From Phragmitibacter flavus (GTDB lineage: Bacteria; Verrucomicrobiota; Verrucomicrobiia; Verrucomicrobiales; Verrucomicrobiaceae), in NCBI RefSeq assembly GCF_005780165.1, contig NZ_VAUV01000010.1:124001-188000 (forward strand): a stretch of 64,000 bases of DNA, read 5' to 3'. Position 1 is the stretch's first letter. Every line of letters starts with the position of its first letter. Shown piece after piece: positions 19,105 through 50,345 of this stretch. A program made the position numbers and the translations under genes. The notes beneath the pieces are model-generated. The model saw nothing but the letters and a program-made list of their open reading frames with translations. It did no database searches and was not told the origin of the DNA.

Positions 19105-21558
19105 TTAAGCGTGTTTGCGCAGCAGGTAATGCAGGGGTCGCTCGTGTTTTTGTTTGGGGGTGAGAGGGGGAAGTTTGGGGTGGAGGGTGTGGGAAGAGTT
19201 TGCAAGGTGGCTTTGGAGAAGAGCAGCGGATTGGGATTTTAGCTGGGTCCATCGCGTCCAAGGGTGGTCCGGCGAATGGCTGAGATGCCGCAGAAGGCTG
19301 AGCCATTCGGTGTAGGCGCGGGCGAGGTCGCCGTTCTGAAAGGATGAAGGCGAAAGGATGAGGGATGAAGACAAACCGAGGAGTTCGGCGGTGGCTTCGC
19401 CGTAGGCGAGGGGAAGGCCGGCTTCGAGGTAGCCGGTGTGGTTGACGAATCCGTAGGTGGCGCGGCAGATGGCGGAGAGTCTTTCGCTGGGGTTGGCGAT
19501 GGGGAGGTCGATGTGGGTGTTGCCGCGCAGGTTTGCCAGATGGGGAAGGAGTTCGTCGATGGGATAGGATTCGTCTTCGAGGGCGGCGGCAATGGCGAGG
19601 CCTTCGCCTTGTTGGAAGAAGCTGAAGATGATGCCGCGTTGAGTCGGAGTGCCGTCGCTTTCGATCAGACCGAGCGTGCGCCAGGCGTAAATGGCGCTGC
19701 CGCTGGAGGGTTTATGGTGGGAGGTTGATGGTTGATGGATCTCGGTGTCGACCTGACGTTCCAGGGTGCGAAATTGCGGAGTAACGAGCCAGTGGCCGTG
19801 GCTGTCCTGGGTGGCTTCGACGGGGAGGTTGGAAAAGTCGTAGGTGGCCCACAAGGTGTCACCACGGGTGGTCATGCCGAAGAAGGTGGCGTTTGGAAGT
19901 TGGGCGTCGAGTTTGGGAAGGGCGACGAGATGGAGTTTTTCCGGGGTGAGGGATTCGATGTGACGGGGGATTTGCAGGAGTTTGCGGAGGGATAAAGCGA
20001 TGGTTTGCAGGCCGATTTCGCCGGTGGGATCGGGGACGCTGGGTCTGCCTAGGGCGATCTCGCGCCCGTAGATTTTTTGATCGCCCGGGAGTTTGGTGAT
20101 GCGGCCGAGCGTGGGGAAAAGGGTGCTGAGGTAGCGGGTGCTGGAAAGGGTGGGGCCCTGAAAGGTGTCGTTGGCAAGGTGGGTCTGGCTGAGAGGGACG
20201 GTCTGGGTGACGGGTTTGGTGATGGGTTCCCAATGGCCCTGGCTGTTGAGGAGTTCGCGCTGGGTGGCTTTGAGGCCAAAGAGGGCGGTGGTAGTTTGGG
20301 GGGTGGCGGTTTGTTGAGGTGTGAGGCCGAGGTCGGGCGGGGTTTTGGCGAACAGTTTGGTGGTGAATTCGGTGGCGGCGATGAAGGGGTCGCGTCCGTC
20401 CTGGGCGGCGCGATACATGATGCGGAGGAAAAGAGGCCAGCTAAGTTTGTTGCCGCGACGGAGTCGGACGGGACGGGAGTCGTTGAGCGTGGGGCTGTCG
20501 CGGGTGGTGAGGACGTAACCACGTTCGTCGAGTCCGCGTCGGCCAGCGCGACCGAACATTTGCAGGAGTTCGTCGGCGCTGAGTTGTTGCTCCGAGACGC
20601 CGTCGTGGAAGGTGGTGCCGGAGACGTGGACGCTGCGCACGGAGAAATTGATCCCGGCGGCAAGGCCCATCGTGGAGACGATGACGCGCAGTTGTCCGGC
20701 TTTGGCGAGGGGTTCGATGAGTCCGGCGCGCAGCGGATAGCTGATGCCGCTGTGATGGAAGGCGACACGTTTTTCGAGCATCGACGCGATGTCTTTGCCC
20801 GCGAGGATGCGTTGTTCGTGGGTGAGCGATAGGGGTTCGCCGGGAGGAAGATGCGTGGCGATTTTGGCGGCGATGGACTCGGCGTCTTTGCGTCGGGGAG
20901 CGAAAATGAGCAGCGGGGCTAGGTCGGCAAGGAGGGCGGCGGTGGCGAGTTTGGCCCAGCGATTTTCAATGTTTTTGAAGCGGGGCTGGTGGTAATCGAG
21001 AGGGAAGTCTTCGAGGGGAACGGGACGGTTATGGGTGCTGATGACTTCGACTTGACGTCCAAGACGGCGCATCCATTCAGCGAGATCGTTGGGGTTTTCG
21101 ACGCTGCCGCTGAGGAGGAGGAGTTGGGTGTTGGGCGGCGTGAGGATGATGGCGCCTTCATAGTGACTGCCGCGTGAGGAGTCGGCGATCATCTGGTATT
21201 CGTCGATGACGAGAAGCGCGGGACCATCGCCGCTGATGAGGCGTTCGATCTGGGTTTCGAGGGTGGCGACGAGGACAGGTGCGTGGACGTTGAGCGCAAG
21301 ATCGCCGGTGGCGAGGCCAACATTCCAGCCGGCTTCGGTCCATTCGGCTTGTTTGTCGTTGGCCAAGGCGCGGGTGGGGACGGTGTAGACGAGTTGGCGT
21401 TTGTGATGACCGGCTTTGGCGATGAGTTCGAAGATGAAGGTCTTGCCGGCACCGGTAGGGGCGCTGACGATGACGTCGCTGCCCGCGCGCAGGTGACTGA
21501 CGGCGCTGTGCTGCCAGGGGTCGGGGAGTTTCAGGGTTTGGGTGAGACCGGAAAACAT
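19105..21558 (-). CDS. Ski2-like superfamily 2 helicase with DEYQ box
   Basis: 817 residues. Motif I is SAPTGAGKT, Ia YTVPTRALAND, motif II IDEYQ, III LSGSVEN, IV region LLIFAPRRKDAES, and motifs V-VI run STMGLAAGIN then QMFGRAGRRGLDERG. The ring-type arrangement and the GRAGR-x-G-x-D-x-RG motif place it with Ski2/Hel308-type helicases that unwind RNA or DNA. The usual DExH box is DEYQ here. After the helicase core, about 400 residues are not recognisable to me and may hold a substrate-specific domain. Start ATG 21558 is used. No nuclease or partner gene is adjacent. Confidence 0.85.
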   Translation of the reverse strand: MFSGLTQTLKLPDPWQHSAVSHLRAGSDVIVSAPTGAGKTFIFELIAKAGHHKRQLVYTVPTRALANDKQAEWTEAGWNVGLATGDLALNVHAPVLVATLETQIERLISGDGPALLVIDEYQMIADSSRGSHYEGAIILTPPNTQLLLLSGSVENPNDLAEWMRRLGRQVEVISTHNRPVPLEDFPLDYHQPRFKNIENRWAKLATAALLADLAPLLIFAPRRKDAESIAAKIATHLPPGEPLSLTHEQRILAGKDIASMLEKRVAFHHSGISYPLRAGLIEPLAKAGQLRVIVSTMGLAAGINFSVRSVHVSGTTFHDGVSEQQLSADELLQMFGRAGRRGLDERGYVLTTRDSPTLNDSRPVRLRRGNKLSWPLFLRIMYRAAQDGRDPFIAATEFTTKLFAKTPPDLGLTPQQTATPQTTTALFGLKATQRELLNSQGHWEPITKPVTQTVPLSQTHLANDTFQGPTLSSTRYLSTLFPTLGRITKLPGDQKIYGREIALGRPSVPDPTGEIGLQTIALSLRKLLQIPRHIESLTPEKLHLVALPKLDAQLPNATFFGMTTRGDTLWATYDFSNLPVEATQDSHGHWLVTPQFRTLERQVDTEIHQPSTSHHKPSSGSAIYAWRTLGLIESDGTPTQRGIIFSFFQQGEGLAIAAALEDESYPIDELLPHLANLRGNTHIDLPIANPSERLSAICRATYGFVNHTGYLEAGLPLAYGEATAELLGLSSSLILSPSSFQNGDLARAYTEWLSLLRHLSHSPDHPWTRWTQLKSQSAALLQSHLANSSHTLHPKLPPLTPKQKHERPLHYLLRKHA

Positions 21559-25709: not shown

Positions 25710-25907
25710 TTATTCGGCCGCTTCAGAACGTTCGATGCGCCAGGCATCGCGATGTTCGGTGACCCATTCGACGAGGGCACGTTCGAAGCCGATGTCCTCT
25801 TTGGCCTTCTGGCTTTCGATCCACTTATAACGGCGGATCTCGTCCAGTTCAGCGAGGTATTCTTCGTAGTAACTGATGGCGGTGCGAGATTGAGCGGGGG
25901 AGGCCAT
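25710..25907 (-). CDS. Small conserved protein, 65 residues
   Basis: A short soluble protein with a motif I have seen in small conserved proteins of several phyla: YKWIESQKAKEDIGFERAL followed by EWVTEHRDAWR. The function is not known to me. A 36-bp pyrimidine-rich element lies immediately before its ATG and occurs again before a cysteine desulfurase gene; no Shine-Dalgarno is present. It lies between ybaB (convergent) and argS (upstream on the same strand, 57 bases). Confidence 0.65.
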   Translation of the reverse strand: MASPAQSRTAISYYEEYLAELDEIRRYKWIESQKAKEDIGFERALVEWVTEHRDAWRIERSEAAE

Positions 25908-25943
25908 ATCGGGAAAGGCTAAAGGATAAGGGATAAAGGATAA
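25908..25943 (-). repeat. Copy A of a start-codon-proximal 36-bp repeat
   Basis: On the minus strand it ends CCTTTAGCCTTTCCCGAT and is directly followed by the ATG of the 65-residue protein. The last 25 bases are identical to copy B (49144-49168, plus strand) and the full 36 bases differ at only two positions. It is built from a repeated TTATCCTTTA-like unit. Confidence 0.75.
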
Positions 25944-25964: not shown

Positions 25965-27722
25965 TCACATGCGCTCGGTGGTCTTGATGCCGAGGAGATC
26001 GAGACCCTGTTTAAGGATTTTCGAGGTGACTTCGCAGAGGACGAGGCGGGTGTTGCGCACGGTGCCTTCGGAGCGCAGGACGGGACAGGATTCGTAGAAT
26101 CCGTGGAAGGTGTCGGCGAGTTCGTAGAGGTATTGGGCGAGCAGGCTGGGACGGAAGTCCTGTTCAAGAACATCATGCACAACTTCGCCGAACTGACGAA
26201 GTTTGACGGCGAGAGCGCGTTCGGCTTCTTCGGTGATTTCGCATTCGGCATCGAGCGTCGGAGCAGCGTCGCCGAGTTTGCGGAAGATGCCGCGAATGCG
26301 GACATAAGCGTTGATAAGATAGGGGGCGGTGTTGCCTTGAAACGACAGCATTTTCTCCCAGGAGAATTTGTAGTCGGTCATGCGATGCTGGCTGAGCTCG
26401 GCATACTTGACGGCGGCGATGCCGATGATCTCGGCGATCTGGTCCTTGGCGGATTCTTCCAGGTCGCGTTCGTCAACGATTACACGTGCGCGTTCGACGG
26501 CTTCGTCGATGACTTCGATCAGGCCGACCGATTCGCCGGAGCGGGTTTTGAACATTTTTCCATCAGGTCCGAGGATGCTGCCAAAGGCGATGTGTTCCAT
26601 GCGCGTGGCTTGACCGCGACGCGTGGACGCGGCGAAGAGTTGACGGAAATGAAGTTGTTGGGGAGCGCCAACTACATACCAGATCTCATCAGCCTTCCAT
26701 TCGCGAACCCTGAAGTCGATGGTGGCGAGATCGGTGGTGGCGTAGAGAAATCCGCCGTCGGATTTACGCACGATGCATGGAGCATCGGTCCACTCGCCAT
26801 CGCGTTGGGTTTTGAAGGGATCGTGGTTGGGAGATTGGGTTTCGTCGGAGAAAATGCAAGCGGCGCCGTCGCTGATGCGGGCGATGCCTTTCTCTAGAAG
26901 ATCGTCGACCAGCGGAGCGAGGGCTTCGTTGTAAAAGCTTTCGCCGAGGTAATGGTCGAAATGGATGCCGAGTCGATCATAAACTTCGTTCAACTGATCC
27001 AGCGTGAGCTTGACGCAGCGTTTCCAGATTTCGAGGTTTTCGGCGTCGCCTTTCTGGAGTTTAACGAGCTCGAGTTTGCAGGTTTCCAGGATTGATTCAT
27101 CGGCCTTGGTCAGAGCGTTGACGGCACGGTAAACGCGCACGAGTTCATGAATCGGATCTTTGGCGAGGGCGTCGTGATCGAGCAGCGTTTTGAAACCGTG
27201 CAGGATCATACCGAATTGGGTGCCCCAGTCACCGACGTGGTTGTCGGTGATGACCTGGTGGCCGACGAAACGGGCGATGCGCGCGAGGCTGTCGCCAATG
27301 AATGTGCTGCGGATATGGCCGACATGCATGGGTTTGGCGACGTTGGGGGCGCTGAAATCGATGACAATGCGACGAGCCTGGTCCACCTCGGAAACGCCGT
27401 TGCGGTCATCTTCGAGAAGCAATCCGATGGTTTTTGCGAGCGCAGGTTTGCTGAGTCGGAAGTTGAGGAAGCCGGGTCCGGCAATCTCTGGCGTGTCGCA
27501 AAGGTCGCTGACGTCGAGGTTTTCGACCAAAGTCGCGGCAAGTTGACGGGGATTGGTTTTCAAGGCTTTCGCTGCCACCATGGCCGCGTTGCTCTGGTAG
27601 TCTCCGAAGCGGGTATCGGAGGCCTGGGCAACGGTGATGGGAATGCCTTCAGGAGGGGTGATGCGTGCTTTTTCGAAAGCGAGCAGGAGGCGTTGGGTGA
27701 GAAGCTGGCGACAGGTAGACAT
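25965..27722 (-). CDS. argS: Arginyl-tRNA synthetase
   Basis: 585 residues, class I enzyme charging tRNA-Arg. The HIGH signature is present as NVAKPMHVGHIRST and the KMSKS-like loop as KMFKTRSGE. The N-terminal additional domain (RFGDYQSNAAM) and the C-terminal anticodon-binding all-helical domain (YLYELADTFHGFY) are complete, and the length is normal. Start ATG 27722 (MSTCRQLLTQRL) is chosen over longer upstream frames, which overlap the PTS gene and read as non-protein sequence. Confidence 0.97.
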   Translation of the reverse strand: MSTCRQLLTQRLLLAFEKARITPPEGIPITVAQASDTRFGDYQSNAAMVAAKALKTNPRQLAATLVENLDVSDLCDTPEIAGPGFLNFRLSKPALAKTIGLLLEDDRNGVSEVDQARRIVIDFSAPNVAKPMHVGHIRSTFIGDSLARIARFVGHQVITDNHVGDWGTQFGMILHGFKTLLDHDALAKDPIHELVRVYRAVNALTKADESILETCKLELVKLQKGDAENLEIWKRCVKLTLDQLNEVYDRLGIHFDHYLGESFYNEALAPLVDDLLEKGIARISDGAACIFSDETQSPNHDPFKTQRDGEWTDAPCIVRKSDGGFLYATTDLATIDFRVREWKADEIWYVVGAPQQLHFRQLFAASTRRGQATRMEHIAFGSILGPDGKMFKTRSGESVGLIEVIDEAVERARVIVDERDLEESAKDQIAEIIGIAAVKYAELSQHRMTDYKFSWEKMLSFQGNTAPYLINAYVRIRGIFRKLGDAAPTLDAECEITEEAERALAVKLRQFGEVVHDVLEQDFRPSLLAQYLYELADTFHGFYESCPVLRSEGTVRNTRLVLCEVTSKILKQGLDLLGIKTTERM

Positions 27723-27780
27723 TGAGAAGAAATAATTGAGGGGAGGAAGGGAAAATTTTCGGCCGATGAAGGGGCCGGGG

Positions 27781-28347
27781 TCACTTGTCCGCGTGTTTGC
27801 GGAAAACTTCAAGGATGGCAGTGGCATCAGGTGCCTCGAGCAATTGTCGTCGCAACTTGCTGCTGAGGAAGTTCTTGGCGACCGCCCGCAGGGTTTGCAA
27901 ATGCAGCAGGTGACGGTCCTGTGGCACGATGTAGAGGAGAATGTAGTGAACCGGCTCTCCATCGGGCGCATTGAAATCGATGCCTTGAAGGGAACGTCCG
28001 AAGATGAACACGGTTTCGGATACCGCGTTGGAATAGCAATGAGGGATGGCGACTCCAGAACCGATGCCAGTGGTGTGGATGTTTTCCTTCTCAATGAGAG
28101 CGTTCAGTAGCGTGGGGCGGGCTTCGCGTGGAATCGCGTTAAGGGCGTCGAGGCGTTCGAGAAGCTCGGCAATGACTCCCGGGCGTTCCAGCGCAACCAT
28201 GTCCGCGATCACTCGATCTGCCGACAGGGTGTTGGCAAGATTGATGTCGAATTGAGGAGCGGTGATCGGCTGGGCCAAGGCAAAGATGATTGTAGACGGG
28301 AGATTGTGGGTGGCAATGGACAAATGCGGCGCATTGCGGTGCTTCAT
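27781..28347 (-). CDS. PTS EIIA type-2 (PtsN-like) domain protein
   Basis: 188 residues. The fructose/mannitol-type EIIA fold is recognisable, with the phospho-acceptor His in GSGVAIPHCYS. The paralogous group that includes PtsN usually has regulatory roles in nitrogen or potassium metabolism rather than sugar transport. The first 40 residues are an unusual extension before the domain (SADRVIADMVALERPGVIAELLERL). The start codon overlaps the stop of the upstream membrane-protein gene as ATGA, so the two are translationally coupled, which also supports this start. No EIIB/EIIC or HPr gene is nearby, so a regulatory role is likelier. Confidence 0.85.
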   Translation of the reverse strand: MKHRNAPHLSIATHNLPSTIIFALAQPITAPQFDINLANTLSADRVIADMVALERPGVIAELLERLDALNAIPREARPTLLNALIEKENIHTTGIGSGVAIPHCYSNAVSETVFIFGRSLQGIDFNAPDGEPVHYILLYIVPQDRHLLHLQTLRAVAKNFLSSKLRRQLLEAPDATAILEVFRKHADK

Positions 28348-37616: not shown

Positions 37617-37700
37617 GCCGGCGTGGCGAAATTGGTAGACGCGCTAGACTCAAAATCTTGTATGAGTGATCATGTGTCGGTTCGAGTCCGACCGCCGGTA
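37617..37700 (+). tRNA. tRNA-Leu (anticodon CAA)
   Basis: 84 nucleotides with acceptor stem GCCGGCG / CGCCGGT, D-loop AAATTGGTAGAC, anticodon loop CTCAAAA (anticodon CAA, reading UUG), a long variable arm typical of class II tRNAs, and T-arm GTCGG-TTCGAGT-CCGAC. The discriminator is A, as expected for Leu. The 3' CCA is not encoded. The anticodon stem CTAGA / TCTTG has one T-T mismatch. A terminator follows 25 bases downstream. Confidence 0.95.
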
Positions 37701-47759: not shown

Positions 47760-47877
47760 AGGACGCGCAGAATAACGTCAAAGCCAATCCTGCAAAGCAC
47801 AAACTTGCATGTGGCAGAAGGTTCAACCCGGTGTATCTACTCCCGCACCGTTTCCATTCGTTTCGTCACCTTCCATC

Positions 47878-49122
47878 ATGCCCACTCCACCAACCGGCTC
47901 CAACCGGCTCCATCAGCACCTCATCGAGCAAATCCTGTTCACCCTCAGACGCATCATGGGGGAAGGCGTGTATGCCGACAAAGCCATCGAACAAGCCTTC
48001 AAATTTCACCCCAAATGGGGCTCACGTGACCGCCGCCTGTTCGCTGAATCCACCTACGACATCGTGCGCTGGTGGCGCATGCTCTGGCACCTTGCCGCCC
48101 TTCCCGAAAAAGATTATCTCAAACCCACCGCGCTCTCCGACACGGCGCTTTGGCGCGTTTGGGGCGTTTATTGGCTCAGCCGGGGCAAAGCCTTGCCTGA
48201 CTGGGACGTCTGCCGGGGCATTCGGATGCTCAAAAATCCCCAGAGCACCCCTGCCATCGAAGCCTCCGTGCCCGACTGGCTCTACGAACGCGCCGAACGC
48301 GAACTCAAAAAAGACTGGCCCTCGATCCTCGAAGCCCTCAACAAACCCGCCGACGTCTTTTTGCGTGTCAACACCCTCAAATACAAACTGCGCGACCTTC
48401 AGATCAAACTCGGTGCTGAAGACTGCGACACCCAGACAGTTCCCGACGTTCCTGATGCCATTCGACTGATCGAACGTCGCAACGTCTTCACCTCCCCTCT
48501 CTTCAAAGCCGGTTATTTTGAAGTCCAGGACGCCGCCTCGCAAATTATCGCTCCGTTCGTTCAGGTCGAGCCCGGCATGCGCGTCATCGACGCCTGCGCA
48601 GGAGCCGGTGGCAAAACCTTGCATCTCGGCACCCTCATGAAAAACAAGGGCCGCATCATCGCCCTCGACGTCCACGAATACAAACTCAAGGAACTGCGCA
48701 AACGCGCCACCCGCAATGGCGTCGACAACATCGAAGAACGCGTCATCGAAGGCTCCCAGACCATCAAGCGTCTCATCGCCAGTGCCGACCGCGTCCTGCT
48801 CGACGTCCCGTGCAGCGGCACCGGCGTCTTGCGTCGCAACCCCGATGCGAAATGGAAACTCTCCGATGAAGAAATCGAGCGACTCATCCTTCTCCAGGCC
48901 GAAATCCTCCGCAGCCACAGCCGCATGGTCAAACCCGGCGGAAAACTCGTCTACGCCACCTGCAGCATCCTCCCCAGCGAAAACGAGAAGCAGATCAAGT
49001 CCTTCCTCGCTGAAAACGGCGGCGAATGGTCCCTCGAAAACCAGATTCATCTTCGCCCCGACAAACAAGGTTTCGACGGCTTCTACGCCGCCCGCCTCAT
49101 CCGCCTCGCCCCCAAAGCGTAG
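47878..49122 (+). CDS. RsmB-like 16S rRNA m5C methyltransferase
   Basis: 414 residues. An N-terminal NusB-like helical region (HQHLIEQILFTLRRI, AIEQAFKFHPKWGSRDRRLFAES) is followed by a Rossmann methyltransferase with DACAGAGGKTLHL (SAM), LLDVPCSGTGVLRRNPD and YATCSILPSENE, which carry the two catalytic Cys of the NOL1/NOP2/Sun family. This is the RsmB arrangement, methylating C967 of 16S rRNA in E. coli; the exact target here is not certain. Start ATG 47878 (MPTPPTGSNRLHQH). Followed 47 bases later by a cysteine desulfurase. Confidence 0.9.
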   Translation: MPTPPTGSNRLHQHLIEQILFTLRRIMGEGVYADKAIEQAFKFHPKWGSRDRRLFAESTYDIVRWWRMLWHLAALPEKDYLKPTALSDTALWRVWGVYWLSRGKALPDWDVCRGIRMLKNPQSTPAIEASVPDWLYERAERELKKDWPSILEALNKPADVFLRVNTLKYKLRDLQIKLGAEDCDTQTVPDVPDAIRLIERRNVFTSPLFKAGYFEVQDAASQIIAPFVQVEPGMRVIDACAGAGGKTLHLGTLMKNKGRIIALDVHEYKLKELRKRATRNGVDNIEERVIEGSQTIKRLIASADRVLLDVPCSGTGVLRRNPDAKWKLSDEEIERLILLQAEILRSHSRMVKPGGKLVYATCSILPSENEKQIKSFLAENGGEWSLENQIHLRPDKQGFDGFYAARLIRLAPKA

Positions 49123-49132
49123 CCTCATCGGT

Positions 49133-49168
49133 TTATCGTTTAGCCCTTATCCTTTAGCCTTTCCCGAT
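49133..49168 (+). repeat. Copy B of the start-codon-proximal 36-bp repeat
   Basis: It ends CCTTTAGCCTTTCCCGAT and is followed after one base (C) by the TTG start of the cysteine desulfurase. Its last 25 bases are identical to copy A (25908-25943, minus strand), and two mismatches occur in the first eleven. No Shine-Dalgarno is present. Confidence 0.75.
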
Positions 49169-49169
49169 C

Positions 49170-50345
49170 TTGCCCTACCTCGATTCCAACGCCACGACTC
49201 AGGTAGACCCAGAGGTCTTTGAAGCCATGCTCCCCTTTCTCAAGGAGCAATACGCCAACCCGTCCGCGTCCTACCGTCAGGCAAGGCAGGTCCGGAAAGC
49301 CATCGACATTGCCCGCCAACAGGTGGCGGCCTTGATCGACGCCGAACCCGAAGAGATCATCTTCACCAGCGGTGGAACCGAAGCCAACAACGCCGCCGTC
49401 TTCTCCGCCCTCACTCTTCACTATCCCAACAAAACTCACCTCGTCACCGCCAAAACCGAGCACAGCGCCGTTCTTGAGCCGGCCAAACGCTGGATGATGG
49501 AAGGCCAGCCGGTCAGCTTCCTCAACGTCTCCGACGACGGACAGGTCAACCTGAACGAACTCGGTCACTGCATCATCCCGAACCAGACCGCCCTGCTCAG
49601 CATCATGTGGGCTAACAACGAAACCGGTGTCATCGGCCCCATCGCCCAGGCCGCTGGATTCGCTCATGAAAATGGTGCTTTGTTTCACACCGACGCCGTC
49701 CAGGCCATCGGCAAAGTGCCCGTCTCCGTCAAAAAACTGCCCATCGATTATCTCGCCCTCAGCGGTCACAAATTCCACGCACCCAAAGGCATCGGTGCCC
49801 TCTACGTCAGCAAACGCGTCAGGTTCAAACCCTGGATGCTTGGTGGCGGTCAGGAAAACGGTCGCCGATCCGGCACCGAAAACGTTCCCTTCATCATCGC
49901 CCTTGGCAAAGCCGCCGAACTGGCCATGAACCACCTTTCGCAAGGCACCAGTGCCGCCATCGCCACCCTGCGCGACACCTTCGAGCAAACCTTGCTGAAC
50001 GCGATTCCCGGCAGTCGCGTGCATGGCGCATCCGCCATCAGACTCGGCACCACCAGCAACCTCTACTTTCCCAACATCGACGCGGCTGGTCTGCTGATCA
50101 TGCTCGATGCCAAAAACATCGCCTGTTCCGGCGGTTCCGCCTGCCACACCGCCCAGTTGCATCCCTCCCATGTGCTTGAGGCGATGGGCGTGAGCGCCGA
50201 AGACGCCCAACGCTCCATCCGTTTCTCTTTCTCTCGCTTCAACACGCAGGACGAGGTCGCTTTAGGCACCCAGACCGTCATTGAATGCGTCAAAAAGATG
50301 CAGGAGCTCAAGGGCGACAACCTTGTGGTGCAATCGACCCCTTGA
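49170..50345 (+). CDS. Cysteine desulfurase (IscS/NifS-like)
   Basis: 391 residues. The N-terminus PYLDSNATTQVDPEVFEAM, the PLP-Lys region LALSGHKFHAPKGIGALYV, the conserved GGGQENGRRSGTENV and the active-site Cys in SGGSACHTAQLHPSHVL place it in class I (group I) cysteine desulfurases. These mobilise sulfur from cysteine for Fe-S clusters or tRNA thiolation. No iscU or regulator is adjacent, so which pathway it serves is unknown. The start is TTG 49170, preceded by the 36-bp repeat instead of a ribosome site. Confidence 0.93.
   Translation: MPYLDSNATTQVDPEVFEAMLPFLKEQYANPSASYRQARQVRKAIDIARQQVAALIDAEPEEIIFTSGGTEANNAAVFSALTLHYPNKTHLVTAKTEHSAVLEPAKRWMMEGQPVSFLNVSDDGQVNLNELGHCIIPNQTALLSIMWANNETGVIGPIAQAAGFAHENGALFHTDAVQAIGKVPVSVKKLPIDYLALSGHKFHAPKGIGALYVSKRVRFKPWMLGGGQENGRRSGTENVPFIIALGKAAELAMNHLSQGTSAAIATLRDTFEQTLLNAIPGSRVHGASAIRLGTTSNLYFPNIDAAGLLIMLDAKNIACSGGSACHTAQLHPSHVLEAMGVSAEDAQRSIRFSFSRFNTQDEVALGTQTVIECVKKMQELKGDNLVVQSTP

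Follow-up and report, generated by a model that had tools for sequence, protein, structure and literature searches.

The window analysed here, a stretch of 64,000 nt that forms part of contig C10 of a 5.91-Mb assembly in 44 contigs, contains two closely similar copies of a pyrimidine-rich element, termed copies A and B, each of which lies between two co-directional genes. The features that matter for the following analysis are listed by their positions in the window:

19342-19369, minus strand: degenerate four-unit heptamer array, on the same strand as a DEAD-box helicase gene
25710-25907, minus strand: 65-codon open reading frame (ORF), with an ATG start immediately 3' of copy A
25908-25943, minus strand: copy A, TTATCCTTTATCCCTTATCCTTTAGCCTTTCCCGAT, directly followed by the ATG at 25907
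25914-25943, minus strand: four heptamers plus TT of copy A
25908-25913, minus strand: CCCGAT tail of copy A
25965-28094, minus strand: argS (arginyl-tRNA synthetase), co-directional and upstream of copy A
30673: maximum of cumulative G-C, i.e., the GC-skew reversal and putative replication terminus
47809-49122, plus strand: RsmB/RsmF-type 16S rRNA methyltransferase gene, co-directional and upstream of copy B
49133-49168, plus strand: copy B, TTATCGTTTAGCCCTTATCCTTTAGCCTTTCCCGAT, with a single C between it and the TTG at 49170
49133-49162, plus strand: four heptamers plus TT of copy B
49163-49168, plus strand: CCCGAT tail of copy B
49170-50345, plus strand: cysteine desulfurase-type aminotransferase class V gene with a TTG start

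Copy A occupies the gap between argS, which stops 21 nt upstream of the array, and the 65-codon ORF, for which no Pfam family was matched. Copy B occupies the gap between the methyltransferase gene, which stops 10 nt upstream of the array, and the cysteine desulfurase gene. The original prediction, made from the letters of the window, described a single 36-bp element that abuts two start codons and lacks a Shine-Dalgarno (SD) sequence. These claims hold: 34 of 36 positions match, the 25 bases at the 3' end are identical, copy A runs into its ATG, copy B ends one base from its TTG, and neither leader contains an SD motif. The comparison with relatives that had been proposed as a check also backs the TTG start, since homologues of the cysteine desulfurase begin at the equivalent residue; their genes start without a heptamer leader of the copy B type. 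The pyrimidine-rich element is thus real, yet its make-up of heptamers, its restriction to one replication strand and the size of the family to which it belongs had not been recognized.

Both copies are also called tandem heptamers by Tandem Repeats Finder. Allowing up to 3 mismatches, the core 16-mer occurs eight times in the window compared to 0.18 expected occurrences. This excess, together with 105 arrays in the genome against none for a control pattern, rules out that A and B resemble each other by chance. The degenerate array at 19342-19369 lies within the C-terminal part of the DEAD-box helicase gene, with no start codon nearby. A search of the window for Rfam-type structured RNAs matched only a tRNA at 37617-37700 and nothing at the array.

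The genome-wide search that had been suggested as a further check reveals a large family. The pattern TTADCCYTTADCCYTTB identifies 105 array ends throughout the genome, while the reversed pattern used as a control yields 0 matches. Positional statistics were derived from 2.35 of the 5.91 Mb (40%; six contigs and part of a seventh), which were tiled and contain 45 arrays, and from a hold-out set of 12 arrays on contigs outside those used before. Genes were called with a home-made procedure, by which some genes were missed or mis-started. On the C-rich strand the arrays follow the consensus (TTA[TG]CC[CT])4-TTTC, often with GAT within a few bases, and on the G-rich strand they read GAAAGGNTAAAGGNTAA... 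Exactly four units are present in 30 of the 45 arrays, and most units carry GG, with GGG in a minority. GAT falls within the first eight tail bases of 18/45 arrays compared to 15/464 control starts, and this tail is also kept in some copies that do not precede a start codon. Copying of whole arrays, assessed by a slot-shuffle test, was not significant (P = 0.10).

The arrays are oriented almost uniformly with respect to base composition. In the tiled contigs 44 of 45 lie on the C-rich strand, as do all 12 hold-outs. The genome is strongly asymmetric, with a GC skew that often amounts to 0.2-0.4 over 20 kb (contigs C1-C3, C7, C9 and C10). By the usual convention the G-rich strand is taken as leading, which would make the C-rich strand the lagging one. 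Third codon positions are 63% C in lagging-strand genes and 46% G in leading-strand genes. Copies A and B are found on opposite strands, which fits their positions on either side of the skew reversal at about 30.7 kb. Matches to a dif site at this reversal occur at chance level only, and therefore the putative terminus is placed by the skew alone. Part of the strand bias of the arrays reflects base composition, since isolated units are themselves distributed 278:149 in favour of the C-rich strand; against the cube of this ratio, 44/45 has P = 0.013. The sole array on the G-rich strand (the pair C7:13989 / C7:14156, given as contig and position) has an array of opposite orientation as a neighbour, at a distance of about 150 bp, and is perhaps the result of a local inversion.

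With respect to genes, the arrays are polar. In 27 of the 45 cases the 3' end precedes the start codon of a gene on the same strand by 1-7 nt, and in 11 the same end lies at -9 to +10 from the stop codon of a gene on the opposite strand, a class that includes C2:302828 and C7:13989, which were scored as starts by the script but judged spurious and moved. Four further arrays are located within genes, and three fall into neither class, two of which are the upstream member of a double array. The hold-outs are divided into nine at starts and three at opposite-strand stops. The genome family of about 105 is nearly confined to one replication strand, and its arrays end at gene edges, about two thirds a few bases before starts and about one quarter at opposite-strand stops. 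Gaps between two lagging-strand genes carry an array in 27 of 435 cases. For gaps between leading-strand genes the figure is 7/529, for convergent gaps 4/245 and for divergent gaps 0/245 (first class versus the rest: Fisher p = 1e-7). Most of the occupied gaps are 30-60 nt long and separate co-directional lagging-strand genes, such that the transcribed array covers about -35 to -5.

The random-placement test proposed for the start bias is strongly positive: when the arrays are slid randomly inside their own gaps, 0 of 20,000 runs place them as tight to the start. Arrays in the longer gaps lie towards the start. If only tight gaps are considered, start-side placement retains P = 0.0002, or P = 0.12 when an 8-nt prefix is counted as part of the element. 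A relaxed search for at least three degenerate units between -45 and -1 retrieves 35 of 501 lagging-strand starts, 1 of 487 leading-strand starts and no control stretches. Accordingly, the arrays form a pyrimidine-rich, SD-free region before about 7% of the lagging-strand genes. Copies away from start codons had been named in advance as evidence against a role at starts. Such copies do exist, at opposite-strand stops and, in a few instances, within genes, but most of the family is found at starts.

Some arrays are part of coding sequences. Several leading-strand genes obtain their stop codon from an array. By our own reading, the arrays at C9:263997 and C9:268308 are translated in frame as N-terminal parts of secretion-type leaders, with the peptide FSLYPLSFSL ahead of a prepilin-like SAFSLLEV in one case and LSFSLYPLAF in a signal-peptide-like stretch in the other. 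The array at C9:277333, also by our own reading, is found after about 430 codons of an ORF resembling glycine dehydrogenase, near the expected junction of its halves.

The TTADCC family is not the only heptamer repeat in this genome. Tandem repeats are dominated by period 7 and include unrelated units such as ACTTCCG, ACTGCCC, AAGAACC and AAATCAT. Among 50 arrays of other heptamers, 46 lie on the C-rich strand, and the nearest gene edge is found at a median distance of 9.5 nt from the C-strand 3' side versus 56 nt from the 5' side (p = 0.009). These families therefore share the polarity of the TTADCC family, albeit more weakly. ACTGCC-type arrays favour divergent gaps (5/10), unlike the TTADCC family. 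Long intergenic arrays of unrelated heptamers with up to about 20 units occur, e.g., at C2:13852, C3:24803, C3:27310 and C3:141223, and a long intergenic tract at C2:386880-387035 is C-rich and mostly poly-C.

The translational context is that of a genome which hardly relies on SD sequences. Neither gene class shows an enrichment of SD-like 5-mers ahead of its starts; SD-like motifs show a small excess at -15 to -12 and at overlapping starts. The 3' end of the 16S rRNA retains an intact CCTCC. Some Verrucomicrobiota, with Akkermansia listed among them, are likewise SD-scarce with an intact CCUCC (PMC10783764). The possibility that the arrays are SD leaders, i.e., contain a purine motif that pairs with CCUCC at about -12 to -5, was rejected, as they are pyrimidine-rich and devoid of SD sequences. 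Pairing of the array with 16S rRNA was also rejected, as no complementary 9- to 11-mer is found. The start regions of array genes are predicted to be more accessible than those of other lagging-strand genes (0.70 versus 0.61, P = 4e-4), and a full-length rpsA gene is present and scores above the family cut-off. The arrays thus appear to combine the features of an S1-type leader, namely a putatively unstructured pyrimidine-rich stretch before the start and an S1 gene in the genome.

Heptamer repeats at gene edges have been described in other bacteria. Rehm et al. 2015 reported the G-rich repeats GGGAATC in Xanthomonas and GGGGA(C/T)T in Nostoc (PMC4692102). The 5' side of their G strand is located near an ORF edge irrespective of the direction of the ORF, including overlap with stop codons, and the Xanthomonas repeats most commonly comprise four units and show no replication-strand preference (PMC4692102). 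The arrays studied here resemble both systems, as they are mostly intergenic heptamers with a G-run on one strand, are under-represented in divergent gaps and obey an edge rule for either ORF direction (27 starts and 11 opposite stops; hold-outs 9 and 3); with Xanthomonas they also share the preference for four units. In contrast to these repeats, the heptamer is a different one and carries mostly GG instead of the GGG tracts that would allow three-layer G-quadruplexes, nearly all arrays occupy one replication strand (44/45 and 12/12), and the spacing to the start is tighter (1-7 nt) with a dominance of copies in the sense of the following gene.

The TAACTGA direct repeats of marine Beggiatoaceae, which MacGregor 2015 proposed as possible S1 sites (PMC4679880), are placed similarly: the majority point forward, end no more than several nt before a start codon and mostly lack an SD sequence, as do 27/45 arrays here, where the unit is TTA[TG]CC[CT]. 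The stop-pointing class is small in Beggiatoaceae, and a relation to the replication strand was not derived, the genomes not being closed (PMC4679880). Long simple-sequence repeats with units of 5-11 nt and the heptanucleotide repeats of cyanobacteria are a further group, as far as they are covered by the citations in PMC4679880 and PMC4692102. They have in common with the present arrays that heptanucleotide tandems are over-represented in bacterial genomes and largely intergenic. To our knowledge, no start-codon or replication-strand rule exists for them. Finally, an SD-poor genome with an intact CCUCC and an unstructured pyrimidine leader matches non-SD, possibly S1-assisted initiation (PMC5397173). 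However, the signals described there are a diffuse compositional bias (PMC5397173; PMC10783764), while the signal here is a repeated element.

Within the genomes sampled, the expansion of the array is specific to the source lineage. A three-unit match is found in 11 of 388 sampled genomes of the phylum, including the source genome, with at most 12 matches in the others compared to 140 here; 35 additional genomes of its taxonomic family contain 0 to 2 matches each. By protein comparison, the nearest named relatives belong to the Verrucomicrobiota (54-59% identity), among them records under the names Prosthecobacter and Akkermansia, and the relatives searched included no genome of the same genus. 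Related heptamers occur in a few other Verrucomicrobiota genomes, some just before an ATG. The reversed control pattern yields up to 19 matches in some other genomes of the phylum, which suggests that further families of heptamer arrays exist there. Outside the phylum, plasmid pA of Kovacikia minuta, a cyanobacterial megaplasmid, carries TTATCCT/TTATCCC arrays, one of at least 11 units, for which adjacency to start codons is not clear. A phage origin was rejected, no match having been found, and so was a plasmid origin, given that similar heptamers were seen only in the cyanobacterial megaplasmid and in one Vibrio record.

Taken together, copies A and B probably belong to a dispersed, polar and strand-locked heptamer repeat, which is tolerated at its sites and was possibly co-opted as an SD-free leader. 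The arrays look like a new, strand-locked variant of the repeats of Xanthomonas, Nostoc and Beggiatoaceae. They would be generated and dispersed at the DNA level through a process with two polarities: the G-rich array strand would coincide with the leading strand, and the C-strand 3' end would come to lie against a gene edge, either a lagging-strand start or a leading-strand stop. Surviving arrays would mark sites that tolerate insertion, mostly short gaps between co-directional lagging-strand genes. Since the genome hardly uses SD sequences, an unstructured pyrimidine tract would be compatible with initiation at such sites and may have been co-opted for it. The original prediction had left three options: a ribosome-entry leader, a transcript-linked regulatory element or a dispersed repeat that ends at genes. 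The repeat explains more of the data and a pure leader less, because arrays are also found at opposite-strand stops and within genes, and because their polarity is common to unrelated heptamers. A point against the repeat reading is the preference for lagging-strand starts over leading-strand stops (27/435 versus 11/774 edges), which would not be expected of a process entirely blind to orientation. The non-significant slot-shuffle test and the share of base composition in the strand bias also weigh against it.

The most serious competitor, which we nevertheless consider rather unlikely, holds that the array is a selected initiation element, a pyrimidine-rich unstructured leader (e.g., a site for ribosomal protein S1) that replaces the SD sequence in lagging-strand genes, the mRNAs of which are C-rich and G-poor and hardly offer purine motifs. 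The 27 tiled and nine hold-out arrays (of 45 and 12) just before start codons, the proximity to the start even in long gaps, the 35 lagging-strand starts versus a single leading-strand start with at least three units, the greater predicted accessibility, the lack of enriched SD-like 5-mers along with a full-length rpsA, and the similarly placed candidate S1 sites of Beggiatoaceae (PMC4679880) are all in its favour, and the genes downstream of the arrays appear, by our own reading, to be conserved housekeeping genes. Yet a selected leader leaves unexplained why arrays terminate at opposite-strand stops or reside within genes and why unrelated heptamers show the same polarity; moreover, arrays are absent from divergent gaps, where the first genes of operons start, and the cysteine desulfurase genes of relatives manage without such a leader.

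It is improbable that the arrays are merely functionless products of replication slippage under an extreme strand composition, which would adjoin starts owing to short gaps. The GC skew over large contigs, the dominance of period 7, the contribution of composition to the strand bias, the shortness of the gaps and the loss of significance in tight gaps upon counting the 8-nt prefix would agree with such a passive origin. It does not account for the presence of one sequence, with a preferred unit number and a recurrent tail, at over 100 sites, nor for a start-side placement that no random run over all gaps reproduced and for empty divergent gaps. An intercistronic element that acts at the transcript level, e.g., as a Rho-loading or mRNA-processing site in lagging-strand mRNAs or as a fail-safe stop for genes on the leading strand, is highly improbable, even though the array is C-rich, G-poor, unstructured and mostly located between co-directional genes, and a TAA every 7 nt covers all three frames in addition to the stop codons that several leading-strand genes derive from it. 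The anchor of the array is the start of the next gene and not the preceding stop, unless the neighbour is oppositely oriented, and in lagging-strand transcripts that are C-rich throughout, an array would add little as a Rho site.

Heptamer repeats that hug ORF edges are known from unrelated bacteria, so far without an explanation. In the family analysed here, this edge geometry is combined with another unit, with a tail containing GAT that recurs ahead of start codons, and with an almost complete restriction to one replication strand; within the same genome, several heptamers of unrelated sequence follow the geometry as well. The arrays thereby separate two readings that were previously mixed, a translation signal and a polar process at the DNA level. 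As a speculation that we regard as unlikely, a strongly asymmetric, nearly SD-free bacterium might have recruited a spreading heptamer array as a ribosome-landing site for lagging-strand genes, with the replication strand setting the initiation signal. If the arrays indeed act as leaders, the replication strand on which a gene resides would shape its recruitment of ribosomes.
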